Origin: Dysidea avara
Lineage: Eukaryota > Porifera > Demospongiae > Dictyoceratida > Dysideidae
Reading direction: 5' to 3'
Assembly: GCF_963678975.1 (NCBI RefSeq)
Contig: NC_089275.1
Coordinates: 23,497,977 to 23,561,976, forward strand
Length of the DNA stretch: 64,000 nt
Shown here piece by piece: positions 29,010 to 63,623 of the stretch. Each line of letters begins with the position of its first letter. The stretch's first letter is position 1. The position numbers were made by a program, and so were the translations under genes. The notes under the pieces are model-generated. The model was not told the origin of the DNA. It ran no database searches and saw nothing but the letters and a program-made list of their open reading frames with translations.

Positions 29010-29078
29010 GAATGTCCAGATCCCCATCGCCCACAGGAACTGGTGCAGACGGCAGTAGCCGTGCACCTGATCCCACTG
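29010..29078 (+). CDS. Micro-exon 1 (module A), contains start codon
   Basis: AG|GA then ATG at 29012; the peptide begins MSRSPSPTGTG and ends RAPDPTG with donor GTGAGT. The exon and flanking intron sequence are duplicated at 42459-42506 and 44024-44071, which share the ADG.S.APDPTG core but have no ATG. If an upstream exon is used, the split codon would be Gly instead of a start. Confidence 0.62.
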
Positions 29079-32000
29079 GTGAGTTAAATCTAATGTGTGT
29101 GTGTGTGTGTGTGTGTGTGTGATAGTTAATTGTATTGTGGGACAAGCATATCAAGAAGTTTGCGGACATTTGCTACACTTTTGTTGATGGTAAAAATGCC
29201 AGCTGGAACAGGCATGTCCAATGCATTTCGATTGAAGAACCGTTAAGAATTAAATTTATTATCGTGTACCACCTACCTCAAGTCTGTTAGTAACTTTCCT
29301 AGCTTAATACGTGTAGAGCAACTCACTGCAAGTACAATAATGCCAAAGAAATCCGTTTCACAGAAATTTGGCACGTAAAAATAACCTAAACTGACCCAGT
29401 GTAGCAAATTTCCCCATAAATTTTGTGTTGGGCGTTTCGGGAGCATGCAATAAAGGGCTTAATAACCTGCGACACATGATAGATACCTCAGATTCTAAAC
29501 CAGATTTAGAAAGAGCAGTGAACAGTGATTAAGATGAGCTATAGCAAAAGAAATTCAGAGGAAATTTAAGCGTGTCATGTTAAGGTTAATTGAAAAGAAC
29601 TCACTTTCTATGGCAAATTGTATGGCAGATATTTGGAAGGGAATGTTCTGAGCTATTTCAATGTCTTGAAAGCCATTGAAATAGCTTGCAGCCTTCACTA
29701 CATAGTATTACAATGAAACAAAAGCACTGTGAATTAGTTCTGCAGGTTGGTTTGGGAAAATTACAGTGTTTTGTGATTAAGCAAAATAGTGTCCGTGCCA
29801 TGTAGCAAACTTCTTTATATGTAATTTTTTGAACCACATTTAAATCAGAGGCAACTAAGTGGGATTAATCTCTACATGTTAATACAGACAGAATATGGCT
29901 TTTAAAGTTGTGCTCAAAGTTAAGTTGTGTTCAAATTTCTTATAATATTAATCGTCATCTTTGTTAATATACGTATGTACTGTTTTACTATGTAGCCCCC
30001 ACCGTGACATGTAGTGCCACCAGTGGTAAGTTGATAAGCTTTACCTATAATGTACTGTAAGGATATAATTTCACCATCATAGGATCGATGACGTCGTCAT
30101 CAGGCAGTGGGATCCATGGTATGTTTAAATGTTTTCTCTGTCCTGTATTTGTTGTGTGTACATGTACATGTGTTTGTGTATGCATGTGTATGCGTCCTTC
30201 CTTATATGTGGATGTTTATTTATAATGTGTTGCTTTACTATGTTGTACTTTGAATGGGAAAGTGTCAAAGTGTGCTATTATTACACTTTGGGTTATAGAC
30301 ATGTCCAAAGTTTAGGAATAGGGATTGCTGAATAAATCCACAAATCAAACTGGAAAGATCAACAAGTATTGTGGTTATATCAAATAAACCCAATATTTAA
30401 CTTTGCCAGCGTATGTACTTTGGTACTTTTGATGACACATGATCCTTGTTGGTTTATGAATTTTTCAGTTTCATAATTGTTACCTGCTGAGCAAAACCAG
30501 CTGTTTTCTTTTATTGCTTCTCTGTTAGCTATAGTAACAAAAGAGTGGACAACCAAAGTTTCAGCTTTTAGTGATGAATAGTTTTGCGAGTTATATTGCT
30601 AGACAGTTGGAATAGGAATAGGCTCGATTTGTACAACACAGTATGGCAAATAAATTGCAGGAACTTATTTAATTGATCATAATTAACTCAAGACTTGAAA
30701 CAAGCTACAAAAATGGGTTTGGCTTGGTATGTTCCCCATGAACTGGCACATCGATCAAGGTATAGTGTTTTTCCTGTACATTTACGTGGAGACAAAGAAG
30801 AAGGCTGTTTCAACAAGTAAATAATGATGGTAAACGTTTTACTACCACATCATAAACAAGCACCCATAACTCACACACTGTGCACTGTGTATGAGCAAGA
30901 ATTAAAAATAAAGATTTTCTTACTCTCAACAAACGGGATTCTGGTGGCATGTAGGTTTTATTCATTTGAGCTTTGTTTCAGTGCATATAACGAAGCTATT
31001 GAAACGTGAGTAAAATTTATGTAGCATACGTATTTTTACCCAGTTTATTTCAATGCTTTTTAATAGCAAAATAGGATTTTGCAATAACGGCAGTTTTTGC
31101 TCAGTGGTTCATATTTTCTAATATATATGACCAGATTTGTGAAAAGGGGTCTTCCACGCACATACATTTCTATGAGCTTCAAAAATCATAACTTAGTGTT
31201 TAATAAACATATAAACCTGAAATTTATCCCATTCACAAAGCAGTGTTGGAGCTTACCACTGATCAAATTTTAAGTTAATAGCAGCTTTCAGTCTGAAGGT
31301 TTAAGTTGTCAAAGTTGGCATATTGGATGTGTGTGGAATACCCCTTTTCACAAATCCAGTCACATATGTCTATTTTGTTTGCATTAATGGATAAACTTGT
31401 TAGACACTTAGCTTAGTATAGACTTCAATTTCTAATGAAAACATTAGGTTGAAGATGTGCAATTATACAAGTGCAAGAAAAAATTTGGGATTAAAGTAGG
31501 GATTAAAATTCAATCATTCAGTTGTGTTTTGTCTCAGCGGCTTGTTTCAGTGCTTTTTATTGCTGCAGTCCCTACTCATATGGAAAATTCCTATTTTTTT
31601 CTTGTACTTGTTTGTGTACTTTTTTGTAAATTTTTATTGAATGACCGTATTTAGTAATTCCCCCCCCCCCCCTGCAATTCTCGAAATACACAGCTAAACA
31701 TTCCTAAGGATGCGGATTTTTAACAAACCGCTTTAAACAACACATTACCCACAGAAGTATCTTTTCAACTGTTTTATAGTGTGTCTACAGTATTATTTTC
31801 CACTAATTCTCTCAGCAAAGTGCCTCAGGGCTGTTCTTACTTTTAGTTCGCGTAAGTACAGGTCACGCCCACTTTCTAGATGACGAGATACACTATACTA
31901 CGGTGTTTTTCAGTTGTAGTACGCCTGAAAAGTGCTCTGGGAAAGCTACCCATAGAGTCTGTAGAGAGGCACCATATACAACCTGTTTTTAAACTCAGAA

Positions 32001-35000
32001 AAGAAACCACCTTCAAGCCAAAGCAAACACTCTAATCCTTACGTGTGTAGTGGCAATGTTGAACAGGCAGCAGCATATCCCGAGGTGTATCCCAACATTA
32101 AATCACGTGCTTGCTACATTATACTACACGTTTATTCCAATATGTTGGGGCGCTGTGGTGTGCGTGTTTTGATGGAAGCCGTACCCATGAGAGATGGCCA
32201 CGATAAAGAAGGATCAAAGATAAAACAGTAAGACAGTAGCGCACACATCGTAGGTATTTAATATTGTGAAAGGTTTTTCTCCACAAAATTTGAGGTGTTT
32301 CCGCCAAAGAAGCAAGGCTGTAGCTGTGGGTTAACAATTTACATACCAAACTTGTCTGGTTTGCTTTTGGTAGATGGTTTTTTCAGATGGCCTGTATAAC
32401 CACGTAAGACTTCTGTGTAGGTCTGGGATGTGGTGTCAAGGGCTCAAACACACTGAAAAATGAGCAGGTAGCTTGAGTGTGCTTTGTGAGAGATTTCAGC
32501 TTATGGTATCTGCCTCTTGACTGGGTGTTTTGTGGTCAGGTGGTGCCTTCAATTATCATGTTGTAGTCAATCTGTTGCCCATCTTGCCCCTTATTGAGCA
32601 CTCGTGATACAGCAGCACTGGTGAAAAGCTGGCTCATAAGCTCCAGTATGTACACATCATTTGCTGGTCCTCAGTAAACTCAGAGCAACAATTGCACACT
32701 ATCAACATTATGTCTGGATCATGTGATCTCACACAAGACCTATCTTGTCTATTGTATGTTAGCAAAATCATGTAACCATATCCCAAACTGAGATGACACC
32801 AGCATGAGGTTGTTGCATTATCAGGCTAATAATTCACATCAAACTTGCCTTCTGGTCTGCTTTTCTGTGTAACCACTCCAAATGTTTGTGCAAGACTATG
32901 AACACCAGGAATATGGTGTAGAGGATTCCAACACTCTTGTTACGGTACTGATAACGATTCAACTCTAAATAATGCCTGATCGCCCTCTGGGGCGTGCGCA
33001 CTTAAATATTATTATTCTCATCACACACCCCCCCCATGAAAAGAGGGTTGGTACAACAAAACAAATGGCCTAAATACAATAAAATTACATGAACTGCCTA
33101 AAAATGCCAGTAAAACAATAAATTCACACATTACAACAATATTATACCAGTGTCAAAGTCCTCGCGATAATGCATCTGCAACAACGTTGTGCTTTCCTGG
33201 GATGTGGTGTATGTTGAGGGTGTACTCCTGTAGCATTAAACTCCACCTCAATAGACGCTGGTTACGATTCTTTACGCGATTAAGGAAAACCAAAGGATTG
33301 TGATCCGTGAAAATGTCTATAGGGAACTGGGCTGGTGTTATGTAGAACTCAAATTGCTGTAGAGCTGATATCAATCCCAATGCCTCTTTTTCACTAGTGG
33401 AGTAGTTTCTCTGAGCGGCATTAAATTTCTTCGAGAAATAACAGATTGGATGTTCTAACTTGTGTACATCCTCTTGCATCAGAACAGCCCCCATTCCCAA
33501 ATCACTTGCATCCACATGTATCATGAATGGCTTCTCGAAGTCTGGCATCGCTAGTACTGGGGCTGAGGTGAGAAGCCTCTTTATTTTAGAGAAAGCTTGC
33601 TGCTGGTCATCTTTCCACGCAAAGCTGTGTTTCTTCTGAAGGAGTCGGGTAAGAGGTTCAGCCACAACTGCAAAGTTCTTGCAAAACTTCCGATAGAAGC
33701 CTACCATGCCCAAGAAACTCATTAGTTGATTCTTGCTACTGGGTCTAGGAAAGTTCATTATTGCCTCTACCTTGGCATGAATGGGTTTAATTCCCCCTCT
33801 ACCAACAACATGGCCTAAGTAAGTTACACATGCCTGACCAAACTCACTCTTGGCTAAATTGACAGTGAGCTGAGCTTGCCTGAGCCGCATCAAAAACTGC
33901 TGAATCCACTGCAGGTGCTGCTCCCAGGTATCACTAAAAATAACGATGTCGTCAATGTACCCTTCACATCCTTCTAGGCCAGCAAGAACTTGGTGGATCA
34001 TTCTCTGAAATGTTGCTGGCGCATTCTTTAACCCGAAAGGCATCACTTTATACTGAAAGAAACCAGTAGGAGTCACGAATGCTGTTACTTCCTTTGCGCG
34101 AGGTGTTAAGGGAACCTGCCAATATCCCTTCAGAAGATCAAACTTGCTAACATACTCGGCACCACCAATCTTGTCTATGCAGTCCTCCACGCGGGGAATG
34201 GGGTATGAATCCGCTTTAGTGATCAGATTCACCTTGCGGAAATCAGTGCAAAATCTGTAACTTCCGTCCCCCTTCGGAACGAGCACGCAGGGAGAACTCC
34301 ATTGACTCTGGCTTGGTTCTATAATATGGTTAGCCAACATGTACTCAATCTCCTGTCTCACCACTTCTAGCTTCAATGGGTTGACCAGATACGGGTGCTG
34401 CTTAATGGGACTAGCATCTCCAACATCTACATCATGAACTGCTAAGGTAGTCTGCTTCGGCACATCTGGAAATAAGTCCGCAAACTCCAAGAGCAGGGAA
34501 GAAAGTTGAGTCTGCTTGGAAGCTGTAAGGTGCTGCATCTTCACTTCTAATTTGGCTAAAACACCAGAGTTCTTCAGCTTGACGCTATCTCCTGTCATGT
34601 CGTTACCCAGAGGGAAATCTTCCCTTTCTGTTGGCTTCTCAACAGCTACCATCAAAGTTGGGTGAACGTCTTGGCTCTGTGTTGGAGCCTTCTCCCAGTA
34701 CGGTTTCAACATATTGACATGACAAAGGCGACGAGTCTTACGTCTGTCAGGGGTACTGATGACATAATCAACATCATTCACTTTCTTCAATATCAAATAA
34801 GGACCAGAATACCTGGCCTGAAGTGTGTGATTCTTAAGTGGCAACAATACCAGAACTTTGTCGCCTACATTGAAAGTGCGTAATTTTGCTTTCTTGTCAT
34901 ACCAGCACTTCATCTTGGTTTGGGCAGATTTCAAGTTCTTCTGAGTGAGTTCGCCAGCAGCTGCAAGCCTGGTACGGAGGGCCGAAACCTGATCCAGCAG

Positions 35001-38000
35001 GTTTGTGGGAGGTTCTTCTGTAAGCCAGCCTTCCTTCAATAGCTTTAAAGGGCCACGGACTGTCCGGCCAAAAACTAATTCAAAAGGACTGAAGCCCAAT
35101 GATTCCTGGACAGCTTCTCGCACGGCAAAAAGTAACAAGTGAATCCCCTGGTCCCATTGCTTCTCAAATTGAGAACAGTACGCGCGAATCATAGTTTTCA
35201 GAGTCTGATGAAAGCGTTCAAGTGCTCCTTGGGTCTCAGGGTGATAAGCAGAGGATTTGCATTGCTTAATCCATAATTGGTGTGTAACCTGTTACATGAG
35301 ACTAGACATAAAATTGGAGCCTTGATCAGACTGTATCAGGGAAGGTAGGCCAACAAGGGTGAAAAACTTGACAAGAGACTCAGCTATTCGGGGTGCCTTA
35401 ATGTTACAAAGAGGGATAGCCTCTGGAAAGCGTGTAAATCTGCACATAATTGTGAGCAAATACTGGTTACCTGACTTAGTCTTTGGTAAAGGACCAACAC
35501 AATCAACAATGACCTGACTGAAAGGCTCACTACACACTGGGATGGGTTTAAGAGGTGCCACTGGAATCGTTTGATTAGGTTTACCAACCTTCTGACATAC
35601 ATGACAACACTTACAAAATTCGGAGACGTCCTTCCTTAGATGTGGCCAATAGAAATGGGTGAGAATTCTGGAGTACGTCTTGTTGACGCCCAGATGGCCT
35701 GCCATGGGTGACTCGTGAGCTAAACTTAGCACTTCTCCTCGGTACTTTCTGGGTACAATTATCTGGTGGACAACCTGCCATTCCTCATCAGCAGGGGCAT
35801 CTCTTGGTCGCCACTTCCTCATCAGTACGCCAGATTTAAGGTAGAAACATTGTGCTTGACGACCAGCCTCTTCCTCACTAACAGCAAACTGCGCCAACTG
35901 GTTAACCTCTTGATCACTCTCCTGATCAGCAATGAGTTGCCTACTAGATACAGGAAGGTTACCTGCATCTTGTACTGTTCCGCGATCATCATCAGTCTGG
36001 TCACCTCGATCCTGCAGTACTGACTGACTCTCTACAGCCTGGTCAAGTACATCTTGCGCTATTGACAGGTTGTCTTCAGCCTGGTCATCTCCCTCGTCAC
36101 TTCCAGTATCCGGCTGGTTGGTAGGTGCACAATTCTGTTGTGCCTGAGCACGTCGCGCTGCTGTTCTTGTCACCACACAAGCTGGGAAAGTGTCCGAAAC
36201 CCCATCAGTAGTAGGTCTTGAACACAGTATTTGCTCAATGTTGCTAATAACTTGCAAGTCAGGTTGAACCTTGCCGCTTCCCATGTTTTGCCGTTGTCGG
36301 ATCAGACTTCTGCTGGTGCAAGTGTGCTCATCCAAGGAGTAGGCCTGGATGTAATGAGAGTACCACTTCATCAGATACACCTTCAGTCGGATTTGGTATC
36401 TGGCCCCGTAGTAGTAGGAGTCAGACCTAGCTTACCAGTGAAAGGTGTGTCTCTAATCCTGGGCAACGATCTGGCCGGTCTGATGCCTGCTGGAGACTGT
36501 CTGCCTTTTGCTCATCGATGTAGGTTTTGATACTATTGGGCAAACAACTCTTAAACTCTTCTACAAGTATGAGCTGGTGAAGCTTCTCAAAATCTTTTAC
36601 TACTTCTTTAGAAGCACACCAACGATCAAACAAGGCTTCCTTGTCCCTGGCAAACTCCCTGTATGTTTGTTTGTCCTGCTTCCGACAATTCCGAAAATTC
36701 TGACGGTAGGCTTCGGGAACGAGCTCATACGCCTTCAAAATAGCCTGCTTGACATTGTCATACTGCCCACTCTGTTCCACACTCATAGCTGAATACACCT
36801 CCCTGCCCTTTCCAATAAGCACACTCTGGAGCAAAACCATCCACACATTCTTCGGCCACACCAGACTAGTGGCCACTTTCTCAAAGTGCAGAAAGTACTT
36901 GTCTACCTCCTTCTCTTGAAATGGTGGGACAAAGCGGATGTGCTTGCTCACATCAAAGGGTAATGGAGGTCCAGGGGAAGGTGTTGAAGGAGCTACTGTT
37001 GCTGCCTCTAATTCTCTCAACTTCAGTTGCAGTGACATTTCCTTCTCACGTACTTCCAACTCGCGAAGCTTCACTCTAGCCTCTCGTTCCCGTTCACGGT
37101 CTTGAAGCTCTAGACGCTTCAACTCTACGACACTGGGGTCTACAACTGGGGATTGAGATTCATCGATCTCCTCTTCGGAAACTAGCTCTTCATCTACTAA
37201 ATGTTGAGTGACTAACCGACAGAGTTCGTTCTTTCTAGTAGACGAAGTGAACGTTAAGTTAATGTAGCTGAGACTTCTTCAGCGACTTTACCACTTGAAG
37301 CGAAGGATCGCTAAGAAACGAGTCAACATTGAAATCTGACATGGAGCGAAAGTCGACGATAGAACCCTACGAAAACAAACTGGACCGCAACAAACCAACA
37401 GGATGACAAAAGAATACCTTTACAGGTGCCTGTAAACCCGGCACCAAGGACTTTTAGAGGTGGGTTAAGAAAAAAATGGCGGACGCCTTGGAAGAATCCG
37501 CTCTGAACAACGACGATATCGGCTTTTTACCGTAGGCAAAGGTTGCAAAGGTTCCAATATAAAATTCTTTTGTCGATAGGTAGGGTTGAAAGGTAGAACA
37601 TCGACGTATCGTCTCCCGGACAAGCCCCCAAGTTTGTTACGGTACTGACAATGATTCAACTCTAAATAATGCCTGATCGCCCTCTGGGGCGCGCACTTAA
37701 ATATTATTATTCTCATCACACTCTGGAAGATGAACAAGTAGCTGAACAGCCTATTTCCTGTTTCTGACAGGCTGTTTTGTGGTATGGTGCCTTCAATTAT
37801 CATCCTTGTCCATTATGTATGTAGTCTAGCTATCTTTTGTCCACCCCCTTGAGGAGCAACGCTCTACAAGGATAAACTCGCTTCATCGATACATGTAGCT
37901 ACCAGGACTGGTGAGTTAAAACATTAAAATACCTTTTTCTATGAATCAGCACTGCAAACATGGAAAATTTTCCAAAATTAGCATCCCTGTTGTGAAATAA

Positions 38001-53000: not shown

Positions 53001-56000
53001 GTCCCGTTTGCAATTGAATTCGTCGGTTTTGCAATTGAATTCGTCCCGTTTGCAATTGAATTCGTCGGTTTTGCAATTGAATTCGTCGGTTTTGCAGTTA
53101 AATTCGTCCGTAACAAGAATGGCAGCTGGAACAAACATGAAAACATGATGTCACAGCTGCTACAAGAACTTGTTCAAGTACAACAGTAGTAAACAACTCT
53201 TTATAAGGCAATAATTCTTCCTCTACAGCCTCTCCAGCAACATTCCAAACTCTACTACGTCACTCGCGAGCAAGCTAATTAACTTGTCAGACAGCCATCA
53301 GCTTCGCGCACTACCAGCTTCAATTACCTTCTAGTGTCTCAAGTGTAACTCTCCAAGGCATAAATAGTTCATCTCTTAATGAACGAATTGGTTTCTTGGA
53401 GCCGTTTTGTTTATGACGAAATGTAATGCAAACGCGACGAATTCTATTGCAAAACTGACTAATTCAACTGCAAAACCGACAAATTCAATTGCAAACGGGA
53501 CGAATTCAATTGCAAACGGGACGAATTCAATTGCAAAGGCAACGAATTCAACTGCAAAAACCTGTAAAAGAGCAGAGTCAAAATAGGGATTTGTGGTTTA
53601 CATTACCACCCCAGCAATCCCTTCTTGTTTCGTGGCTTTTTTCAGTGATCCCTATTTCTTATTTTAAATTTTTAATATGTCTAGTTATATAACACTTAAA
53701 TTCAGACTGATAGCCTTTATGCCAATATGAGTGTAACCACTGGATTGTTTTATCTGCATGTCTGAAAGATTCCATTATGGTTAGGTGGCAAGTAACATTG
53801 TAGCTAGGATTGTTATAACAAACACATGAGTCCTATAGATATCATGGAAAAGTCAAGTAGGGCAAATTTCAGGGAATTTACAAGTGTTTTAATGCTTTCA
53901 TGTTGTTTAAAGGCCAATCACAATGCGTATATACTAAAGATCTAAAGGGGTAAGCTTTGTTAAAGTGGTTAACTCGTGTCATCCGTATTGTGGGTGTGTC
54001 TGTATTCAAAAACATGTGGAAATGCTTGTGAATGCACTGAAATCACTTTTAAGTAATGTTTCCCAACTTGTAATATGACAAGGATACTGAAAGACCTTCA
54101 TTTGAGTGCTTCCTGTGGCAACACTTCAATTTGTGGTAAAAGTCATGAGAGCATTAATTTATTCCCACAATTGATTTCAGTCTGAGCTTGTACAAAGTGA
54201 ACAGAGGGCAGTACCATTACCTCATCCACATCAGGACCATACTTGTTTTGATGAAGTGGCTTGCTCTTTAGAACTGCAACCACTTTCTGGGATACATGTT
54301 GATGTACACTGGTTTAGCTACATTTAGATGTCTCCGGTATCCTCTGGAATTCTTTTGATCTGAGATATCTACATTTACCTGTGGATAACTAGTGTGTGAC
54401 TAATGAAGTACTGTATGACACACAGAGGATCTTATATTTGAATTGTATTTACAGTATATATATCTTACTGTACATAGGTCGTAGTCCACCACCAATCCCA
54501 TCGTTAATGACCGGTGCCTCTAGTGGTAAGTGTATGTATCACTTGACGGGTACATGCAATATAATATTTTGTGATTGTAAAGTAAAACATCTTATAAATT
54601 TTATGCGTGATTTATGTATGTTTTTTATTTATCCCAACCGATGAACCGACTGTGCCCAGTATGTTGGTGCCATGCAATATAGCTGTATACACACAGTTAT
54701 ATGCATTTTCTACCTAACCAGAAGCCTTGGTTCTAGTGGTTCCCCTGCTGTTGGAATGGGGGCATTTCGAACCTCTAGCATTACCGAATTATGTATGTAT
54801 GTTTCAGATGGCTTGGTCTCGCACACTGTGTGTCAATGGGGTATGCCTTCTCAAACAGGTAAACTGTAGCTTTCATGCACCTCTATTGCATAACAAAATT
54901 CCACCGTCATACCCATAACTCAGCCCTTTTCTTAGCTTGAGCATGTATCACAAAATTGATCAATTTCATCAGGAGAAATTGAAGAAGGATAACGTAATAC
55001 ATGAGGTGACTATTACCAAGAGTATATAATAGAGCCAAGAGTGTCGAACGGTGTATTAATGATTGCGTAAAGTGACACGGATATTTCAGTAATTGTTTGT
55101 TTACGCGAAATGGTAATTTGAACTCAACGGGTCTTTGTATGCTAGTTTTCCATGTTATTCAACCAAGAGTTATTATACAAGGAAAGTGTAGAAGGACCCA
55201 AGATAACCCCAGCTCACTAAAACAACGATTGCACAAACGAGCATGTTGCCAGGCCTTCAGGGATCAGCTTGGCAGTGCCAGAACTTTGACATTAGCCAAT
55301 TCCCTTTTATGCTGTCATGTTTAATACAGCTACCCATAGTGGCAATAGAAATTGTGTTACTATATGCAGTCATTAATCACAGGGTATTACATCCATTCGA
55401 TACTCTTGGTTACCATTATATACTCTTGCTATTACTCACTGTCATTTTTGAAGCAGAACAACTAACCATCACTTAAGCTTGTAAATACTGTAGGACCACA
55501 ACGAATGTCAAGTTTAGCATCCAGATATTTGGACGTCTTAACCAAACTATGCCAAAGTGCTAGAATTCAGCCACATACGTACATGGCCACTTTCTCTCTG
55601 AAATATATGCAAAGTGGTTGTCCTGATAATCAATTTTAAATGGCAAAGCAGTCCATCTCGTAGAAGAATAGCTGCATGGTCACCAACACCATTTCAACTG
55701 TAAACACTTATGATTAACAAATAAACGTAAAATTGGATAAATCGAATAATACAGTACTTGTTGCAGCCCTACTTGTACAGTAGTTTAACTCTGTGGGTAA
55801 TTAAAACTTCCATTTTAAAACAAGTACCAATTAAGCTTTTATGCATGCTTTGTGCTTTTCATTCAGTAGTTCTGCTGACCGCAAGTGCAATTGCTCCATC
55901 AACATTGCCTGATATGTTGGTTTTATGAAATGTACAGTAGATATATTTGTAAAATTGATATTTTTATTAATTTAGTCCCATTATATATACGTATACCTGT

Positions 56001-59000
56001 ATACTAAGAACAAGTTTAATATTTTGCTGGCCAGAATCCCAAGTGTTAGCATCAAGTTTGGGAAGCAGTTTGACATCTCCTAGTCAAAGATTGTTCTCTT
56101 CAGCCAACTACCTTACTGATTTGGTAACCTGTAAATTATTAAATATGTTCTTGGACCTCATTATTTTGTACACTGTAGTTTGTGCCATGTTTCTGTTTGA
56201 TTTACATAATTTTGATGTTTCACGAAATCTTTCCCTTTCAGTAATTTCATAGAATAGGCATACATTCACTACCAACTTTCAGGTTTATTTACTTACATTT
56301 ATATTACAGGTCTGCCATTGTTACCATCATTGACTGTACACAGCTCTCCTGGTAAGTTTAAAAACTGTGTATTGGAATCACAAAGGTTAACCAAACAAGA
56401 AACCGACCCCTATCATGGGATGGAGTTGAAAACTTCCAATTAGTGTAGATATTTTCACTGTAGATTACTTATAATTCACTAACCAGCTTGTATACTATTG
56501 TATTTGTGACCCACTGAGCAACCCAACTAGATTGCACTTACTTGAACTTCATTCCATTGGGCTGGTAAAGCCTGGTGAGTACTGTTTTGGAGTTGTAACA
56601 ATAGACAAAAAAGCAAAATAATTGACTTGTACAGTGCCTATATGAAAATTAATCATACATACTGTATGACACTAATGCAACAGTCTATGGAGTTAAGACT
56701 TGTCCACTCGTGTTACAACCACTTGTAGCCAGAGCCATTTATAAGTTAAAGATCAGCCTCACCAATAGTAAAATTTGTAACTGTAGCTACAGCCAGGTAC
56801 TGCTGAGGCCATGGAGGTACCATAATTACTTTTTAAAATCTCAATAGGGCTATATGTAATCACATGTTTAAAAGCTTGTGGACATTTACAATAACTGTTA
56901 TGTTTTCGATACCATCTGTAGCTGCTATGCCACCAGCAGCATTAACAACGACAACAACAACAACAAGGACATCATCCAGGGTGTCACCTAGGACGTTGCC
57001 GAGATCCACCAGGGGTTCTCCTTATAGTGGTAAGCTAATCTGTAGTAACTGTAACATGAACCAGGGTGATTTATATGATGCAAGGTGATTTATATGAATG
57101 CCAGTGTAGTGGTGGGCAACTAAGATACGTACCTTGGAATTAACAAAGTTATCCACATAATACTCTTATACTGTAATTTACACTTTGAAATACTAAACAT
57201 CTGCTAGTCAATACCTAAGCCATTCCACTTCCATGAATCAGCACTTTGGGCTGTCAGCAAAAAGGAGTGGGACACAAAAGAGAATACATGCATTGTACAT
57301 ATTGCGGCATATCTCAGGATGAAGCAATGCCAAATAGTGAAAAATCAAACCCATAGCCGTAGAGTTTATTGAGTTATGCTTGTCTGCAGGCATCAGTCAG
57401 ACAATCCATCAGTCAGGCAGTAGAATATTACACCGATTAATTGTGGTTGCTGTTTTTTTTTTTAAATTCCGTAACAAGTTTTTGGAAGCATTTCAGGTCA
57501 TACTGAAGGCACTTCTTGGCTTGGTTATGCCTACCAAGGCACCATGAAGCTGGTTTTAGGGTGATACTTTTGGTCAGAAAAGCCCAAACCTTCATGATCC
57601 CTAGTATACAGTACACTGTAGATTGGCTTTCTATATTGTACAGTGTTTACTATTGTATTTATCTCTAGGCGGTAGTCCACTTAGGACATCTGATGGTGTT
57701 CCAAGGAGTTCCCCTGGTAAGTACAACGAATCATGGTTGCAAGCTCAAGTACCCAACTGCAAAATAAAATACCCAATTTGACCTTTGAGTAGCTTGAGCA
57801 TATGTTATTAATGCACATAACTTCACCTTCTTCATACAGTATAATTCTAATTAAATAGCCTATAATAATTTAGTCTTCTGATGGTGTAATTGTGCTGACT
57901 CTGATTTGGCTGCTTACAGAGTTTGGATTAAACTGATTCCCATACCCTTTGTCTCATACTTCTCTACTTGTATAGTTGCCAATAGGACATAAGCTTCTGA
58001 TCTTTTAACTGTTATATATTTTTTGCATTAGGTGGTGTGCCATCTGCAGCAACGCCTAGGTCCTCAAGGAGGCTTCCTAGTGGTAAGTAACTGTGTAGTA
58101 CAATGGAACCCCCTTTAAGAGGATATCCCCTGGATTGTAGACAACCTTTTTATAATTGACATTTTTTTGTCCAGGTATCAAATAAACAGTACTAGTAATT
58201 TGTACATGGACACTTCTTTATAAAGATCAGAAATTATTCCTTATAGAGGTCAGATGTTAATTCCCTAATAATGTCCATCTTAGAGGGGTTCCACTGTAAT
58301 TGTAATATGGGCCAGGGTGCACACTGTATGTACTATGCACCCTGTATGTATATGTAATATGCAGCGTTCTATTGCTGGCTAATAGCCAGTGTTGAGTGAC
58401 CAATCACCTAATGCAACTGTAACCATTGCATAAGCACATGTCTTAAATATTCCTAATAAATGTTCAGTTTAGTGATTTCACAAGTACCTGTACATGTTTT
58501 AACAACAGGTTGGTCTGCCCTTTTATGAAGGGTATGTGCCTCTTTGAAGTCAAGTAGTAATAATAGCTTAATTTCACCACTTTTAAAAACTTTTTTTGAT
58601 ATGTGTATTCTAATAGATTTGTGCTACCATTACAGCTACATAATGCAGTTAGATTACCACAATTGATTGTGTATGCATTATACAAGTAGTTTAATTCAGT
58701 TTCCTACAATGTCCATGTTACCAATTTTTGTCTATGCAAATTTTTAACCTTCTAAGTTGTTAAGAAAACTACTGAAGCTTCATGCTTAACCTTCTCACTG
58801 CCACTTAGATTGTGAACGCCTGTAGTATTACATTCTAAACTCTCTGTAACTTTAGTTGAGCATTTTAGTAGCCACTGTCCTTATCCTGTAGTGGGCACGC
58901 CCTTAAGTGAACGGGAACAGGGATAACCAGTCTCTTGTGCACTGTCACGCGGTTAGATGATGCAATCGCATACTTTCGGAATGTCAATAACAAGCATTGT

Positions 59001-62000
59001 AGAGAATTCTCCAAAGACTACTAATAAAGAGAAACAGTAAGGAGAGGGATTATATAGGTTGGAGTGGCGTGTTAAACAGCGTTAGCCTGTAAAGGTGTGA
59101 AAATTCATGTTTGGTTTCACTTAGATCAATTTTTGCATTCAATAGTTATATAATGGCTTTGTGGTTGCTCCTGTGTAATTAGCAACTCAATAAATGAATT
59201 CCTTGTTCTATAGCAAGTAATTTGATATATAGGTTTATAGGATTATATGATATGGTAAGTTACAGCAGTTTAGAAGCAGTAGATTGGAGCCTCTACAAAT
59301 TTGATGGTGAGGGGTTTTAATTAATTATGTTATGTGTTAGTAATTACTTTGATGCAACCATAGTACTGGCTGTAGTAGCACAACTGCATACATGAATGAA
59401 TCAAAATTTACCAAGGTTAGTTGCATGCTTCCAGGAAGCACGTGATCTCCCTACTGATATATAAACCTGTAACAACGCTATAGAGTGTAGCCATCAAATA
59501 ATAGTCAGTGTTGAAAAGTCGTGTACCTCTCCTTCAGTCGGCAAAACATTGTATGCATGGTGGATGTTCATGGGTTTAAATATTTGTACAAAATTCTCGT
59601 GAGTGTGTAATATTGTTTCTTTTTACTATATAGCTACCGTAACAACAACAGTATCATCCCCTGCTGGTATGTTCATGTATGTGTATATTTTAAAATGTTT
59701 ACATGCTACTAAATGATTTCATACAAATTCATGTGTGATATTGTTTGTTTACACTACTATAGGTGACCAAGTACCACCACAACTACCACCACAACCACCA
59801 CCACAACCACCACCAACATCATTGGTCACCAGCAGTGGTACGTGTATATTTTAGTACTTGATCATATGGCCTTTATAGTCCTCTTATTATGTTTCTTATG
59901 TGACCTGCTAAGCAAAACCCCGACTAGTTTGCGTAATTCTGTTTTTGAGAAAAACCGCGTTGAAATACATGGGTAAAAAACGTGTACTAATAAAACAATT
60001 TTACGTGCATTTTAATTGCTTCAGTAAACAGTAAAACAGGGCTCAAATCAAGATAACCAAGTGACCAACGGGTTCACCTATTAATAGTGAGTAAGAATAT
60101 CTTTGTTTCGTTTTAGTGACACAAAGTAAACATGAGTTGGTTTACGTTGCAGTAAAATATTGTGTAAACATTGCCATTTCTAAATTTAAACAGCCTTTTT
60201 GATTAAATGCATGGGTGTATATAAGGCAAAACTGTACCTTGCTGAATGTCCCAATTCATTGTAAAGACAATGAGCCAAGTCCCATCTCCATAACTATGAG
60301 TTATGATTGATTAAACAAGCACCTGTAATTTTTCCCTCATATAGTCACTGTACAAATTGATTGTTTTGTACTTTCTGATATCTATCACTAAAACTCCACA
60401 ACTATTTACCAGATAAGGCTAAAACTTTCACAGCCCATTGGTTTTTATTGCTCTGGATAACAAAGAAGTTATAAAAAGAAGTTTGATAAAAATGCAAACT
60501 AGTCAGGTTAATGCAAACTAGTCAGATTTCTCTCAGTGGGTCACATATATGTACTTAAACAATGACAGTATATTACCAACTCTTGATATTACCTTTTAAT
60601 ATTATATCAAGACACATGGTAATGTCATGTGGCCCAAAAAGCTGGCACGCAACACCATGAGTATATTGATAGGAAAAAGAAAACATGACATTCACGCATT
60701 ATAAAGTACCTAGTAAAGGCAGAGCCTGTAAACCAGAAGGCCTTATAAAGGCCTAAGATGTTTATATTAACTGTACTAAGTATGGCATGTGTAGCTCCGT
60801 GATCTCTTATGCAATTGGTTGCTACAAGAAGTGCCTGTAAAGTAAGGGAGCCTACTTATGAAATTTGAAGAATATTGCTGCAGCCATTTCTGAGATACCA
60901 TTGGCCAAGGTTTTGTTTCTTCTACTTCTTTTTGCACACTTCGCAAAATCTGCCATAAAATACAAATGCATACTCTGATCAAGCTAAAAATTAGCACACT
61001 TAAATGGCTCATTAAAACAGTACCAAGTTTGGAGGGAACCCCATAAAGAATCACGGAGTTATGACTGATTATTTGTGTAAAATAGGATCGGACTTATGAG
61101 GAATGAGCTAATGGCACTTTGTTAACTTATAATATGCAGCAGTTGAAGTGGTAACAACAAATTCATACAGCTTCACAAGCAACTACAGTAACCCTCAGTG
61201 CTCCAAGGGTTAATTTATTAGGAATTTAGGGATCAAATAAGTAAAAAGTTGTGAAAAAAGGCAGCAGGTTTCCTTCACCTGAAGGACATTTAATCCAGAG
61301 CACTTTTGTTTATACACTGTGTAATGGACTGAAATGGGAGGTGCAAGTATAGAGTAGTTGGGGCTCTTGAATCATCCATATTTTTTGTGATGACTGGATT
61401 GATTGTGCAGGTGCTTTTCCTACTGTTCTTTGTTTATACGTATAACAGGGTGAACATAGCTGATAGCAAAGCATAATGGTTATTTCACTTTTCAGGTCAA
61501 TAGTTGATACCTGGGGTACACATTCAGATGAAATTAACTGTGATTCTTTGATGCTGTATGTGTGTGTTCCCCAGTCATAATAATGTTATATAACAATGTT
61601 ACAAAAAAGCAAACAAACAAGTACAGTATATGGAAAATTAGAAATTTTAAGTTTGATTAGGGATTATAGGAATAAAATGTAGTGAAGCAATGAAGATCAG
61701 CTACACCTGCAGATATACTAGTGGACATTTATTCCACAGTTTGGTCAAATTATACTAGTGGATGTTGTTAACCCCTACTTTAGCCTATACCCATGACTAA
61801 ATTAGGAATTAAATGTCCACTAGTACTGTATATCTTCAGGTGTAGGCAACCTCCCTTGTTTCTATTAGGCTTGCGTACATTATGCCGGAATAATTTTTGG
61901 AATAATCGGTGATAAAAAGAATCAGGAATAATTCCGGAATAATAGGATGATCAGTAGTATTGCAGAAAAATTCTCATAAGTGTGTAATATGGTTTGTTTT

Positions 62001-63623
62001 CACTATTGTAGATCAATCCTCAACACCACCAGCAGCTGGTACGTATGTACATGTATGTGTATACTTGAAAGTGTTTGTATCCTACTGTACAAAACTCACA
62101 AGTGTAATATTCTTTTGTTTTCAACTACTATAGGTGACCATGACCAAGTACCACCACCACTATCGGTCACCAGCAATGGTACGTGACATAGCAATGTTCA
62201 GCTCATTCCTTCAAGGGGTTTACCTTTATTTTACACAAATAACCAGTCATAACTCTGTGATTCTTTATTGGGTTCCCACCAAACATGGTACCATTGTAAT
62301 GAGACCTTAAAGTGTGCCAAGTTTTAGCTTGATCAGGGTATGCATTTGTATCTTATTGCAGATTTTACAAAGTGTGTGAAAAGAAGTAGAAGGAAAAACT
62401 GAAAAAAAAAAAAAATTTTGGCCACTCGTATCACGGAAATGGCTGGGGAAATTTTCTTATGTATACTCCCCTACTGCACAGGCACTTGTTGTAGTAAATA
62501 TAACTGTAGATGGAGTAGACATCATAGGAGTTAAATTTTAGAGTAAATTTTAATGAAAGTTAGAGCACAATTTACTATGTAGCCTAGCCAGTCTGTTTTA
62601 AAGTTACTTTTGTATCTTATACTAATGCAAAATTCTCACAAGTGTGTAATATAGTTTGTTTTCACCACTGTAGATCAACCACCATCACCAGCCAACTCCA
62701 CAGGTATGTGCATACTGTAGTTTAATAATTTTACATCCTACTGATTGAGAGATTTTGCCCACAATTTACAAGTATGCATACAAACCAAAAGGATCATGAA
62801 CTTTTCTGGCTAAAAATATCACCCTAAAACCAGCCTCACAATACCTGCATGGAACCTTAGCAGTATTAAAACAAGAAAAAATATTCAGTGAAATTTTCTA
62901 CTGACCAACTGCCTGACTGATTGATGCCTTCAGACAAGTGTAAGTTGATATCGGTTAAGACTATGGGCTTGATTTTTTTCACTATATGACGTTGCTTCAG
63001 TCTGTTGATATACCGCAGAACATACACCTGTACAATGCAATGCTTCATGGACTTACCTGTGTCCTCCGGCCTTTATGTCCCAATTATCTTTGCTGATAGC
63101 ACAAGTTGTCAATTTGCAGTAGTACTGCAGGATTGTTTCCCCACACACTTGTAACAGAATTTGTCCGAGTTTTCTGTTGTGACTGGATTGATTACAGATG
63201 TCTTTCTCGTAGTGTTCTTAATTTGTTTGTAACACTGTGTAATGGGCTGAACATAGCTAAAAACAAAAAAAACGAACTCAGACAATGTGCGCCATTCTCC
63301 TAATGCAACACATGCATGTTTACCAGTTATAATAATGTGACAAAAAGTAAACAACAAGTACAAGTAAAAATTAAGATCAAGGAAAACAAGGGAAGTCACC
63401 TACATGTACCTGAAGATATACTAATGGACATTTAATCATTTCAAACCGAATTAGAGATTAAATGTCCACTAGTATATATCTTCAGGTGTATGCAACCTCC
63501 CTGACTGAAATAGGATTAAATGTCCATTAGTATATCTTCATACAACTTGATTTTGCGTTTGTTTTAGTACCACCAACTACGTCATCACAACAACATGTAA
63601 TTTGCTTGGATGAAATCAATTAA
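29012..63623 (+). CDS. Micro-exon gene encoding a Ser/Thr/Pro/Gly-rich protein
   Basis: At least 25 exons of 18-108 nt, typical size about 45 nt, are spread over 34.6 kb. Each begins after a clean AG, ends in phase 1 with G|GTAAGT, G|GTATGT, G|GTACGT or G|GTGAGT, and starts with two bases completing a GNN codon, so junction residues are always Gly, Ala, Asp or Val. The listed exons join without a frame break into about 398 residues from the ATG at 29012 to TAA at 63621. The protein is rich in Ser, Thr, Pro and Gly, with no signal peptide, transmembrane helix or known domain; the C-terminus is HVICLDEIN, or HLSIEI if a donor at 63597 joins an acceptor ending at 63669. Because all exons are 1-1 phase, any subset can be skipped without frame loss. 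Introns are full of mobile DNA. A promoter-like block lies 1.1 kb upstream; alternatively the exon at 24225-24276 (also ending G|GT, phase 1) could splice in. Exon calls rest on splice signals and frame, not on transcripts. Confidence 0.6.
29093..29120. repeat. (GT)n microsatellite
   Basis: Thirteen or so GT units in the first micro-exon intron, absent from the B and C module copies of the same intron, so it expanded after duplication. Confidence 0.9.
29996..30025 (+). CDS. Micro-exon 2 (module A)
   Basis: 30 nt, acceptor TATGTAG, donor GTAAGT, phase 1-1; encodes APTVTCSATSG. Module B has lost this exon's donor by deletion and module C has a shortened 18-nt version. Confidence 0.6.
30083..30118 (+). 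CDS. Micro-exon 3 (module A)
   Basis: 36 nt encoding GSMTSSSGSGIHG, donor GTATGT. The three module copies differ at a single base (His to Arg), a much tighter match than the surrounding introns. It contains the near-palindrome GATGACGTCGTCATC. Confidence 0.62.
31126..31366. mobile_element. Foldback MITE with 'gaccagattt...aaatccagtc' ends
   Basis: The left arm (TGACCAGATTTGTGAAAAGG) and right arm (CCTTTTCACAAATCCAGTCA) are inverted copies of about 35 bp. It is roughly 240 bp and non-coding. The terminal type is shared with elements at 41113-41740, 43267-43903 and 48829-49472. Confidence 0.75.
32938..33025 (-). repeat. LTR (3' LTR in element orientation)
   Basis: 88 bp, TGTTACGG...CATCACA on the plus strand. 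Adjacent bases to the right are a C run followed by CATGAAAAG, which on the minus strand is the purine-rich tract expected before a 3' LTR. Confidence 0.88.
33153..36380 (-). pseudogene. pol: integrase - reverse transcriptase - RNase H, one stop codon
   Basis: Frame 36380-35292 carries an acidic linker, an integrase zinc-binding segment (H-x-H near HESPMAGHLG, and CKCCHVCQKVG) and the first two catalytic Asp positions (VDCVGPLP, QSDQGSNF). A single TAA follows FMSSLM. The same frame then continues through the integrase Glu region (GALERFHQ) and C-terminal domain into 35192-33153, with RT motifs (SSPCVLVPKGDGSYRFCTD, then KFDLLKGYWQVPL, and the active-site box GYIDDIVIF) and an RNase H domain (HVDASDLGMGAVL, TDHNPL, then VVADALSRGL). 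So the integrase core is cut between its second Asp and the Glu; the rest is open. No protease motif was found between gag and integrase. Confidence 0.88.
36427..37342 (-). pseudogene. gag, frameshifted and 3'-truncated
   Basis: The likely start is ATG at 37342 (MSDFNVDSFLSDPSLQVV). The frame is lost near 37260 and resumes in another frame that runs to 36427. It has a long charged coiled-coil (about 37130-37010) and then a capsid-like region (KHIRFVPPFQEKEVDKYF, LLQSVLIGKG, then QYDNVKQAILKAYELVPEAY, and FDRWCASKEV), related to SCAN-like gag cores. It ends abruptly after DEQKADSLQQAS without a CCHC knuckle, suggesting that an internal deletion removed the knuckle and protease. Confidence 0.8.
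37613..37630 (-). other. Primer binding site, tRNA-Pro type
   Basis: On the minus strand, TGGGGGCTTGTCCGGGAG. The well-known tRNA-Pro primer site is TGGGGGCTCGTCCGGGAT, so 16 of 18 positions agree. It is located 4 bases inside the 5' LTR. Confidence 0.8.
37635..37720 (-). repeat. LTR (5' LTR in element orientation)
   Basis: 86 bp, near-identical to 32938-33025, with the CTCT duplication immediately after it. At this length it is among the shorter LTRs known for Ty3/gypsy-type elements. Confidence 0.88.
38309..38374 (+). CDS. Micro-exon 4 (module A)
   Basis: 66 nt, donor GTACGT; begins ATTSAIPVHF and ends ERRLAG. The homologous exon in module C is 44753-44809, which shares the RRLAG/SRLAG end and a similar upstream intron. 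Confidence 0.58.
38475..38516 (+). CDS. Micro-exon 5 (module A)
   Basis: 42 nt, acceptor ATAACAG, donor GTACGT; encodes DCFMSTRQLHRTPPG. The counterpart in module C at 45737-45781 encodes DCFISQHELQRTPVTG, confirming an exon-level duplication. Confidence 0.6.
39590..40270. repeat. Dispersed repeat related to 57290-57620 and 62780-63330
   Basis: Shares blocks such as 'cagtcagtcagtca', 'gaaagttgaggctggc' and 'cctagc...accttcatggtgcc' with the other two positions, the last in opposite orientation. It is non-coding, sits within micro-exon gene introns, and its boundaries are approximate. Confidence 0.5.
40278..40955. mobile_element. MITE with 25-bp inverted ends
   Basis: Left end reads CATAGATATACGACTCC and the right end is its inverse, with a further GGTTAT-like outer block on each side. 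It is about 680 bp and no open frame of note was found. Confidence 0.7.
41113..41740. mobile_element. TTGTGACTG-type foldback MITE, copy 1
   Basis: Left part 'gtgactgagtctgagaaaac', right part 'ataagatcggtttccc...ggcca'. Internal blocks ('gccattttagatagttttt', 'accaaagtttcacacgtttt', 'cagccatccc') match the copy at 48829-49472 throughout. It is about 630 bp, and the short open frames inside are not conserved as protein. Confidence 0.75.
42459..42506 (+). CDS. Micro-exon (module B, copy of exon 1)
   Basis: 48 nt, phase 1-1, encodes GATTSADGRSHAPDPTG, donor GTGAGT. It differs from the module C copy by one residue. Confidence 0.58.
42691..42725 (+). pseudogene. Decayed micro-exon (module B copy of exon 2)
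   Basis: The acceptor TATGTAG and the first bases (CCCCCACTGTGACATGTAG) are kept, but a deletion of about 21 bases removed the end of the exon and its GTAAGT donor: 'gtgcc' runs directly into 'tttgcctataatg', which belongs to the intron in module A. The exon cannot be spliced normally; skipping it preserves the frame. Confidence 0.7.
42755..42790 (+). CDS. Micro-exon (module B, copy of exon 3)
   Basis: 36 nt, GSMTSSSGSGIRG, donor GTATGT; identical to the module C copy. Confidence 0.6.
43267..43903. mobile_element. Foldback MITE inserted in module C intron
   Basis: Left end TGTGACCAGATTTT and right end AAAATCCAGTCACA are inverted copies. It interrupts module C sequence between 'cctttgacattacaa' and 'atactttaggg', which are contiguous in module B apart from a few bases, so the insertion postdates the B/C duplication. 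It is about 637 bp. Confidence 0.82.
44024..44071 (+). CDS. Micro-exon (module C, copy of exon 1)
   Basis: 48 nt encoding GATTGADGRSHAPDPTG, donor GTGAGT. Confidence 0.58.
44259..44276 (+). CDS. Micro-exon (module C, shortened copy of exon 2), 18 nt
   Basis: Same acceptor as exon 2 of module A, but an internal 12-base loss leaves 18 nt encoding APTVTGG, still phase 1-1 and with an intact GTAAGT donor. It is the smallest exon of the array. Confidence 0.52.
44332..44367 (+). CDS. Micro-exon (module C, copy of exon 3)
   Basis: 36 nt, GSMTSSSGSGIRG, donor GTATGT. Confidence 0.6.
44753..44809 (+). CDS. Micro-exon (module C, counterpart of exon 4)
   Basis: 57 nt encoding GIPMIQAARFIYTGGSRLAG, acceptor TTTCCTATAG, donor GTACGT. 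The upstream intron segment ('catcaactattaatcatttagattaatgat') matches that before exon 4. Confidence 0.58.
45737..45781 (+). CDS. Micro-exon (module C, counterpart of exon 5)
   Basis: 45 nt encoding DCFISQHELQRTPVTG, donor GTATGT. Confidence 0.58.
45839..45929. repeat. Small hairpin element, copy 2
   Basis: Arms begin CAGTTGTATCATGTACCCGA and end with the inverse GATACAACTG; the loop contains 'cccttgagcttgggtgta'. Same family as 19315-19412. Confidence 0.8.
46090..46440. repeat. 350-bp block repeated at 53870-54230
   Basis: Shared landmarks: 'aggggtaagcttt', 'tctgtattcaaaa', 'catttgagtgct' and 'cacaattga/caattaattt'. Each copy lies roughly half a kilobase upstream of a micro-exon (46610 and 54478). 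Confidence 0.7.
46610..46663 (+). CDS. Micro-exon 11
   Basis: 54 nt encoding GVATTVPTTYADAVRGISG, acceptor ATGTCTAG, donor GTAAGT, phase 1-1. About 480 bp upstream lies a block homologous to one upstream of micro-exon 12, suggesting that these two exons also derive from a duplication. Confidence 0.6.
46961..47310. mobile_element. hAT-like MITE
   Basis: Ends TAGGGATGCCACGAT and (inverse) TAGGGATGCCATGACAT with internal 'tcgtgacata' motifs near both ends. Flanks GTTTGTA and GTGTGTA agree at 6 of 7 bases, a degraded duplication. About 350 bp. Confidence 0.75.
47433..47533. repeat. Small hairpin element, copy 3
   Basis: Arms GACTGATTTGCTTGATACG / TATCAGGCAAATCAGGAGTG are inverted; loop 'cccaagggctgtggg'. 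Same family as 19315-19412 and 45839-45929. Confidence 0.75.
47534..48828. other. Intronic stretch, nothing assigned
   Basis: Includes an ATT-rich run near 47765-47800 and a possible very short exon after CCTAG at 47800 that I did not accept for lack of a good donor. A segment around 48000-48240 repeats weakly within itself ('acatcattggtgtggtaatggcacagtgatg' against 'catcagtggtatagcaatggcacagtgatg'). Confidence 0.4.
48829..49472. mobile_element. TTGTGACTG-type foldback MITE, copy 2
   Basis: Left end TTGTGACTGTCTCTGGGAAA with 'accggtcttatcgccc', right end the inverse ('gggcgataagaacggttttc ... ccagtcacaa'). It matches copy 1 at 41113-41740 internally. About 645 bp. Confidence 0.85.
49950..50570. 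mobile_element. MITE with TACCGTA(C/T)GGAGGGAAA ends
   Basis: Left end ACCGTACGGAGGGAAATTTT, right end inverse of TACCGTATGGAGGGAAACTT. Sub-terminal 'ttggcgaa' motifs occur several times in both arms. About 620 bp and non-coding. Confidence 0.82.
50893..51102. mobile_element. MITE with TACCGTATAGCC / GGCTATATATACAGTA ends
   Basis: Left TACCGTATAGCCTAAATATT and right AATATTTAGGCTATATATA are inverted; 'gaaatattt' and 'aaatttt' blocks recur inside. About 210 bp. The overlapping open frames on both strands are a product of the palindromic structure. Confidence 0.8.
51903..51929 (+). CDS. Possible micro-exon, low confidence
   Basis: 27 nt between GATAG and GTAGAT, phase 1-1, encoding GAQSVILLTG. 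Composition is less Ser/Pro-rich than the others and the donor is weaker, so it was left out of the length total. Confidence 0.25.
52318..52933. mobile_element. hAT-type MITE with perfect 8-bp duplication
   Basis: Ends TAGTGTTGCACCGATAA and (inverse) TAGTGTTACACCGATAT. The flanking duplication CTAGTTAT lies at 52310-52317 and 52934-52941. 616 bp, with 'tatcgg' motifs sub-terminally. Nested inside the minisatellite-armed foldback. Confidence 0.93.
52967..53108. repeat. Minisatellite arm, forward
   Basis: Seven units of GCAATTGAATTCGTC separated by 5-7 variable bases (CTGTTT, CCGTTT, GGTTTT). Each unit contains an EcoRI-type GAATTC palindrome. Confidence 0.93.
53435..53560. repeat. Minisatellite arm, inverted
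   Basis: Six or so units of GACGAATTCAATTGC with linkers AAACGG or AAAACC, the reverse complement of the left arm; the first units are diverged. Confidence 0.92.
53870..54230. repeat. Second copy of the 46090-46440 block
   Basis: Homologous intronic block upstream of micro-exon 12; see the first copy for shared landmarks. Confidence 0.7.
54478..54525 (+). CDS. Micro-exon 12
   Basis: 48 nt encoding GRSPPPIPSLMTGASSG, acceptor TACATAG, donor GTAAGT. Confidence 0.62.
54808..54858 (+). CDS. Micro-exon 13
   Basis: 51 nt encoding DGLVSHTVCQWGMPSQTG, acceptor TATGTTTCAG, donor GTAAAC. An alternative upstream acceptor (cacacag, exon start 54696) stays in frame and would add a Ser/Gly-rich stretch (SLGSSGSPAVGMGAFRTSS), giving a 163-nt exon. 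Which acceptor is used cannot be told from sequence. Confidence 0.5.
55867..55911 (+). pseudogene. Fossil micro-exon with a mutated donor
   Basis: Acceptor ATTCAG, 45 nt in phase 1-1 encoding VVLLTASAIAPSTLP plus a split G, then ATATGT where the other exons have GTATGT. A single G-to-A change explains the loss of the donor. Confidence 0.45.
56035..56123 (+). CDS. Possible micro-exon, phase problem
   Basis: Acceptor GGCCAG, Ser-rich peptide SQVLASSLGSSLTSPSQRLF followed by SSANYLTDL, donor GTAACC. The start fits phase 1 but the end is phase 0, so it does not join to the next exon in frame. Possibly a decayed exon or an alternative end. Confidence 0.3.
56310..56351 (+). CDS. Micro-exon 14
   Basis: 42 nt encoding GLPLLPSLTVHSSPG, acceptor TATTACAG, donor GTAAGT. 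Confidence 0.6.
56922..57029 (+). CDS. Micro-exon 15, largest of the array
   Basis: 108 nt, acceptor ATCTGTAG, donor GTAAGC. Encodes AAMPPAALTTTTTTTRTSS then RVSPRTLPRSTRGSPYSG; an ACA/ACG repeat makes the poly-Thr run, and the Arg-Ser-Pro part is mucin- or linker-like. Confidence 0.65.
57290..57620. repeat. Dispersed repeat, second position
   Basis: Related to 39590-40270 ('catcagtcagacaatccatcagtcag', 'ggcaccatgaagctggttttagg'). Boundaries are approximate. Confidence 0.5.
57669..57716 (+). CDS. Micro-exon 16
   Basis: 48 nt encoding GGSPLRTSDGVPRSSPG, acceptor TATCTCTAG, donor GTAAGT. Confidence 0.65.
58032..58082 (+). CDS. Micro-exon 17
   Basis: 51 nt encoding GGVPSAATPRSSRRLPSG, acceptor TGCATTAG, donor GTAAGT. 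Similar in wording to exon 16 (GGxP...PRSS), suggesting an old duplication. Confidence 0.65.
58101..58296. mobile_element. Tigger-like MITE in intron 17
   Basis: Ends CAATGGAACCCCCTTTAAGA and (inverse) CAGTGGAACCCCTCTAAGA, flanked by TA. 196 bp. It starts 18 bases after the donor of micro-exon 17. Confidence 0.82.
58300..59633 (+). other. Intron between micro-exons 17 and 18
   Basis: 1.3 kb with no further exon, repeat family or RNA gene that I can support. A GTAAGT at about 59254 follows a possible 14-nt exon, but its phase does not fit. Confidence 0.4.
59634..59666 (+). CDS. Micro-exon 18
   Basis: 33 nt encoding ATVTTTVSSPAG, acceptor ACTATATAG, donor GTATGT. The upstream intron 'ctcgtgagtgtgtaatattg' is repeated before exons 20 and 22. 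Confidence 0.62.
59763..59837 (+). CDS. Micro-exon 19, proline-rich
   Basis: 75 nt, acceptor CTACTATAG, donor GTACGT. Begins GDQVPPQLPPQPPPQPPP and ends TSLVTSSG; the CCACCA/CAACCA repeat explains the Pro/Gln run. Shorter homologue at 62134-62178. Confidence 0.65.
59838..62011 (+). other. Intron between micro-exons 19 and 20
   Basis: Contains a repeat block at 60780-61090 that is an inverted copy of 62225-62480 ('agaatcacggagttatgac' and its complement), and a 61390-61860 block related to 7560-8000 and 63050-63500 ('gtccactagta', 'atcttcaggtgta'). No exon was supported. Confidence 0.45.
62012..62038 (+). CDS. Micro-exon 20
   Basis: 27 nt encoding DQSSTPPAAG, acceptor CTATTGTAG, donor GTACGT. 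Confidence 0.6.
62134..62178 (+). CDS. Micro-exon 21
   Basis: 45 nt encoding GDHDQVPPPLSVTSNG, acceptor CTACTATAG, donor GTACGT. Shares DQVPP...L(S)VTS(S/N)G with exon 19. Confidence 0.62.
62674..62703 (+). CDS. Micro-exon 22
   Basis: 30 nt encoding DQPPSPANSTG, acceptor CCACTGTAG, donor GTATGT. Third copy of the exon 18/20 type, with the same upstream intron phrase. Confidence 0.6.
62780..63500. repeat. Composite of dispersed repeats
   Basis: 62780-63100 is an inverted relative of the 39.6-kb and 57.3-kb repeat; 63170-63540 matches the 7560-8000 and 61390-61860 family, including two adjacent copies of 'taaatgtccactagtatat ... atcttcaggtgta'. Confidence 0.5.
63568..63623 (+). CDS. Terminal exon of the micro-exon gene
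   Basis: Acceptor GTTTTAG; encodes VPPTTSSQQHVICLDEIN then TAA at 63621-63623, phase 1 at the start. Alternative: a donor GTAATT at 63597 (after SSQQH) and an acceptor TTTTGTGCAG ending at 63669 would give LSIEI and a TGA. ATTAAA near 63690 could serve polyadenylation. Confidence 0.5.

Follow-up and report, generated by a model that had tools for sequence, protein, structure and literature searches.

Does a run of tiny intervals with splice-site borders, scattered between positions 29010 and 63623 of this DNA from the sponge Dysidea avara, constitute a gene, and if so, of what kind? The window analysed here is a stretch of 64,000 nucleotides (C4:23497977-23561976); we refer to its gene copy as W and to other copies by their contig (C4c, C1c, C9 and so on). 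By listing AG...GT intervals of 12–160 nt between 28.9 and 63.7 kb, with generic splice-site scores from matrices taken from general knowledge, we re-found the 25-exon chain proposed in a first-pass annotation: 24 internal exons and a terminal exon (63568–63623), which when joined give 398 codons and then TAA. The uniform phase 1-1 and G/GT ends described there hold for every internal exon, since all 24 are bordered by AG and GT, have lengths that are multiples of 3 and end in G. Internal exons measure 18–108 nt (median 48 in the chosen chain, n = 24), their acceptors are TAG rather than CAG in 19 of 24 cases (29010–62703), and the coding fraction of 29010–63623 is 0.035, matching the annotated one base in about 29. 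The exon structure is read directly from the DNA, and the exons are predicted to be spliced together in RNA as follows.

29010–29078, + strand: exon 2, start codon at 29012, MSRSPSPT...; ATG and MSRSPSPT kept in C9
29996–30025, + strand: exon, B module; splice sites, mapped in paralogues
30083–30118, + strand: exon, C module; splice sites, mapped in paralogues
38309–38374, + strand: exon with second in-frame donor after 38356; splice sites, present in C4c
38475–38516, + strand: exon; splice sites, mapped in paralogues
42459–42506, + strand: exon, A module copy; splice sites, present in C4c
42755–42790, + strand: exon, C module copy, the intervening B exon having lost its donor; splice sites, present in C4c
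44024–44071, + strand: exon, A module copy; splice sites, present in C4c
44259–44276, + strand: exon, B module copy, 18 nt (30 nt in C4c); splice sites, C4c
44332–44367, + strand: exon, C module copy; splice sites, present in C4c
44753–44809, + strand: exon with second in-frame donor after 44791; splice sites, present in C4c
45737–45781, + strand: exon; splice sites, present in C4c
46610–46663, + strand: exon (YADAVRG); splice sites, present in C4c
54478–54525, + strand: exon; splice sites, present in C4c
54808–54858, + strand: exon; splice sites, present in C4c
56310–56351, + strand: exon; splice sites, present in C4c
56922–57029, + strand: longest internal exon, 108 nt; genome matches, mapped in paralogues
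57669–57716, + strand: exon; splice sites, present in C4c, paired in divergent-copy comparison
58032–58082, + strand: exon; splice sites, present in C4c, paired in divergent-copy comparison
59634–59666, + strand: exon; splice sites, present in C4c
59763–59837, + strand: proline-rich exon; splice sites, present in C4c
62012–62038, + strand: exon; splice sites, present in C4c
62134–62178, + strand: proline-rich exon; splice sites, present in C4c
62674–62703, + strand: exon; splice sites, present in C4c
63568–63623, + strand: terminal coding exon, VPPTTSSQQHVICLDEIN and stop; present in C4c, residues unchanged in C1c
63690–63695, + strand: ATTAAA, possible polyadenylation signal; read in sequence only

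One further interval, 30982–31005, was judged doubtful and left out of the count: its last base is C, its sites are lost in C1c and it has no in-frame match in C9. Its sites are strong in W and are also kept in C4c and C2.

With an LTR element removed, 41 symmetric candidates on the + strand are open in phase 1, compared with 24 and 28 open in phases 0 and 2 of the same set (a single symmetric candidate can count as open in several phases) and with 7 symmetric phase-1 candidates on the reverse complement. In 60 second-order Markov sequences the mean number of such candidates was 7.9 (sd 3.4, maximum 16); counted by distinct donors, 34 were observed against a Markov mean of 6.7 and a maximum of 12.

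Upstream of the coding exons lies a promoter-like region conserved among paralogues. The palindrome GCGCATGCGC, which we take to be an NRF-1-like motif, is kept in six of eight aligned paralogues; C6 carries one substitution, and C10 has as yet no homology at that point. The CACGTG at 27852 is presumably an E-box. The end of exon 1, CAGTGG/GTGAGT, is kept in C9, even though exon 1 has indels there.

27817–27826, + strand: promoter palindrome GCGCATGCGC; kept in C9, C1c, C5, C2, C4b and C13
27852–27857, + strand: CACGTG of the promoter (presumed E-box); kept in 8/8 aligned paralogues
27871–27876, + strand: TATAAA box; kept in 8/8 aligned paralogues, including C9
27895–28052, + strand: exon 1, probably non-coding, with an approximate 5' end; GTGAGT donor at 28053 or, for a shorter form, a donor at 27912

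There is no ATG in 27895–28049 and no phase-1 frame with an ATG at either exon 1 donor. Three donors in 27.8–29.0 kb score at least 6; a phase-1 frame containing an ATG leads up to just one of them, and it has 4 codons. Because exon 1 lacks an ATG and the upstream donors yield only this 4-codon frame, translation likely starts at 29012; the MSRSPSPT start survives in C9 through synonymous changes.

A search of the 550.8-Mb assembly (108 contigs) revealed that the gene belongs to a family. Sequence surrounding the first coding exon matches over its full length at 12 places (84–100% identity), one of them in the window itself: four on C4 (23.53, 23.78, 23.98 and 24.20 Mb), three on C1 and one each on C10, C5, C2, C13 and C6. 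The promoter stretch finds the same 12 copies at 94–100%; it also picks up a copy on C9 at 70% and weak traces of itself on C15. The exon near 57 kb has 17 matches in the assembly, including two short ones on C14. Further members appear at C6:13.06 Mb and C10:9.15 Mb. The terminal exon matches eight places (four on C4, two on C6, and one each on C10 and C1). It could be located for only six of the 12 close copies, and in C10 it lies ~150 kb away from the 5' end, so that part of the family may consist of truncated, different or dead copies. The left edge of homology varies among copies, and the duplicated unit stops short of a CARD-like exon 18 kb upstream (10387–10704), since that exon occurs once in the genome. 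Taken from genomic sequence, the gene belongs to a dispersed family that has recently expanded and comprises 12 close copies along with more divergent members, and the first-pass observation, while correct, was understated: this is one member of a family with a variable number of exon blocks.

The variable block is a triplet of exons, A-B-C (for example ATTGADGRSHAPDPT, PTVTCSATS and SMTSSSGSGIR), present 1 to 4 times per member when the 5' copy is counted. Counted by DNA similarity, which gives lower bounds (5 kb of C1c is masked, and C2 was read exon by exon), the triplet occurs at least once in the C1 copies, at least twice in C10, at least three times in each of the four C4 copies, C5 and C6a, and at least four times in C2 and C13. 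The B exon of the window's second triplet, at 42691, has lost its donor, and a C9 exon near 19826 has AT instead of the donor GT; because the exons are 1-1, loss of a splice site leaves the frame intact. Outside its 5 kb of masked sequence, C1c has exons not found in W, and vice versa. Mobile sequences have entered the locus too. A Ty3/gypsy-like LTR element (32938–37717, − strand; Pfam matches to RVT_1, RNase H, integrase and SCAN) sits in an intron and is absent at the same place in C4c, and a 1.3-kb insert flanked by an 8-bp duplication (26471–27756), upstream of the promoter, is present in W and C4d and absent from the nine other close copies where the flank was seen.

Several other features were seen in the window: hAT transposase remnants at 20479–22089 (− strand; Pfam Dimer_Tnp_hAT for the frame 20479–21162), two CARD-like reading frames under the Pfam cut-off (10387–10704 and 11803–12198, + strand), an exon of a p24/GOLD family protein (13386–13712, − strand; Pfam EMP24_GP25L), and a 21-nt tandem repeat with GAATTC (52943–53560), with an apparent inverted counterpart ~0.4 kb away, judged by eye. 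Silicatein is a sponge marker; of 67 cathepsin/silicatein matches, the four checked read GSCWAF (three) and GSCWSF (one), with the catalytic Cys, and none of these four is a silicatein.

Coding constraint was first examined against a close copy, C4c (C4:23976987-24015424, rebuilt from pieces), which holds every window exon, the doubtful one included, with AG/GT. Between the two copies, none of 125 donor positions (+1 to +5) and none of 156 acceptor positions (−6 to −1) has changed, the doubtful exon again being counted here and in the substitution rates. Exons carry eight changes in 1,223 bases, five synonymous and three non-synonymous (binomial p 0.04, with the synonymous share of sites borrowed from the C1c–C9 pairs). 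Exon indels are of 6+6 and 9 nt, whereas in introns the length is a multiple of 3 for 14 of 55 indels (p 0.075). Against constraint, overall substitution did not differ between exons and introns of this pair (8/1223, 0.65%, versus 240/28524, 0.84%; p 0.63).

More divergent copies were compared by paired exons. Ka/Ks is 0.41 for C1c–C9 (13 exons; synonymous excess p 0.0001), 0.55 for W–C1c (13 exons; p 0.012) and 0.57 for W–C9 (8 exons; p 0.021), the three comparisons having sequences in common and so lacking independence. In this set, the C1c and C9 exons had mostly been pre-filtered for a length divisible by 3 and an open phase 1, and their agreement in length is partly by construction; in unfiltered mapping, all W exons mapped whole in C1c (21 of 26 entries) and 16 of 17 mapped in C9 are divisible by 3, the exception being the doubtful 30982. 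Two exons weigh against the coding reading: 59763 has nine non-synonymous and two synonymous changes between W and C1c, and 56922 has 22.2 and 9.8 between W and C9. In C1c the final 17 residues are the same, their codons differing by a single synonymous change. Across 152 exon mappings in 13 copies there are zero stops and zero frame breaks, AG/GT being kept in 143 and missing in nine; as module exons 42459, 42755, 44024, 44259 and 44332 were mapped to non-orthologous copies in this set, which inflates non-synonymous counts, rates were taken from the W–C4c and Ka/Ks sets instead. Together, the kept frame and the synonymous excess support the view that the divergent copies are under coding constraint.

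The predicted 398-residue protein is rich in Ser (17%), Pro (14%), Thr (14%) and Gly (9%), the composition noted in the first pass, and contains 14 SP/TP sites and 10 PxxP motifs. By hydropathy, we found no signal peptide or hydrophobic stretch: the first 40 residues are hydrophilic, and the maximum 19-residue mean is 0.83. Neither the W nor the C1c protein matched a Pfam family with E up to 1, Rfam gave no matches in 27000–64000, and tblastn against viral and prokaryote collections found no relatives, which says little as these are non-animal collections. A single PDB match (E 0.13) was taken as chance. We infer an intracellular Ser/Thr/Pro/Gly-rich protein with SP/TP sites and polyproline, disordered as judged from composition, which probably acts as a scaffold or regulator.

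Our preferred reading, to which we assign a probability of roughly 0.7, is that of a protein-coding gene from a recently expanded, dispersed family, with constant ends, a variable middle of phase 1-1 micro-exons and an intracellular disordered product. Such a gene would open with a conserved TATA promoter and a non-coding first exon; its coding part would have a constant exon at either end and, between them, a variable set of 20-odd micro-exons in phase 1-1. With all internal exons frame-neutral, exons or blocks could be duplicated, lost or skipped with the frame unbroken. It is conceivable, though we regard it as rather doubtful, that this non-secreted family on several chromosomes diversifies an intracellular disordered protein both by gain and loss of blocks between copies and by cassette skipping within a copy.

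Four other readings were weighed against this one. Since single splice consensus matches are common, the exons might be accidental, being splice-like sites that happen to follow one another in AT-rich sequence, but the 41 candidates set against 7.9 expected, and the conservation of the exons across paralogues, make this extremely improbable. Another proposal is that the recently amplified copies are mostly decaying pseudogenes that preserve the exon structure of a single functional ancestor. The introns of close copies, too, are highly identical, no terminal exon was found for six close copies, splice sites are lost in some copies, and mobile elements have inserted in an intron and upstream, all of which is consistent with decay; the lack of stops or frame breaks in the 152 mappings (five module exons being non-orthologous) and the synonymous excess among divergent copies argue against it, and we consider it unlikely.

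The remaining two readings concern the product. Since the exon architecture resembles that of secreted families (PMC4350168, PMC7495047, PMC9168663), the gene might encode a secreted effector or structural protein of the micro-exon type, on the model of aphid KQY genes, schistosome micro-exon genes or an elastin-like matrix protein, with an overlooked signal-peptide exon further upstream. This seems improbable to us given the ATG-free 27895–28049, the single 4-codon ATG frame from donors in 27.8–29.0 kb, the hydrophilic first 40 residues and the start conserved in C9 by synonymous changes. Alternatively, as in schistosome micro-exon genes (MEGs), the micro-exons might be skipped in many combinations, giving different isoform sets per cell or individual. 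The frame-neutrality of all 24 internal exons, the two exons with a second in-frame donor, and the site-less exons (B exon 42691 in W; near 19826 in C9), which could be omitted without loss of frame, would fit such a diversity system, but splice sites unchanged between W and C4c are what is expected of normally included exons. The combinatorial, schistosome-like interpretation offered in the first pass is possible, but we lean mildly away from it.

How, then, does the preferred family of constant-ended, intracellular micro-exon genes relate to known systems? Uniform-phase micro-exon families are known mainly from parasites and sap feeders, in which they make secreted effectors. Compared by description, tropoelastin and the titin PEVK region also have many small frame-neutral exons that code low-complexity sequence; those proteins are extracellular or sarcomeric. 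Schistosome MEGs are described as having their coding sequence mostly in very small symmetrical exons that enable splice variants, a signal peptide on every product and an apparent restriction to platyhelminths (PMC4350168). Compared by description, the two share tiny symmetrical exons and organisation in gene families (high dN/dS is also listed for MEGs; PMC4350168), but the sponge family has one phase for all coding introns, 12 close copies on several chromosomes, and no signal peptide that we could find. The schistosome analogy drawn in the first pass therefore stands for exon architecture and not for secretion.

Aphid genes, likewise compared by description, come close in other respects. 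KQY1a spans 45.7 kb with 37 small exons, in a family with a conserved signal peptide (PMC7495047), and nearly all internal exons of bicycle genes share one phase (PMC9168663). KQY/KHI and bicycle genes resemble the present family in being large, with many tiny exons, isoforms or a single phase, and a constant N-terminal region followed by a divergent remainder (PMC7495047, PMC9168663). The "phase 2" of bicycle exons denotes a start at codon position 2 (PMC9168663), as in the present exons, and the phase may match; the conserved signal peptide of KQY/KHI (PMC7495047) sets them apart from the sponge family, in which none was found. Because the secretion feature fails as far as tested, we keep the present family separate from MEGs and aphid effectors. 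In the open-access literature searched, no description of such a family in sponges was found. Our best reading is that uniform-phase micro-exon families here take a novel form, one that apparently lacks secretion and in which exon blocks turn over between many copies. Its many close copies with different block numbers form a natural series for how such genes arise, and the family bears on whether frame-neutral micro-exons diversify proteins outside host–parasite conflict.
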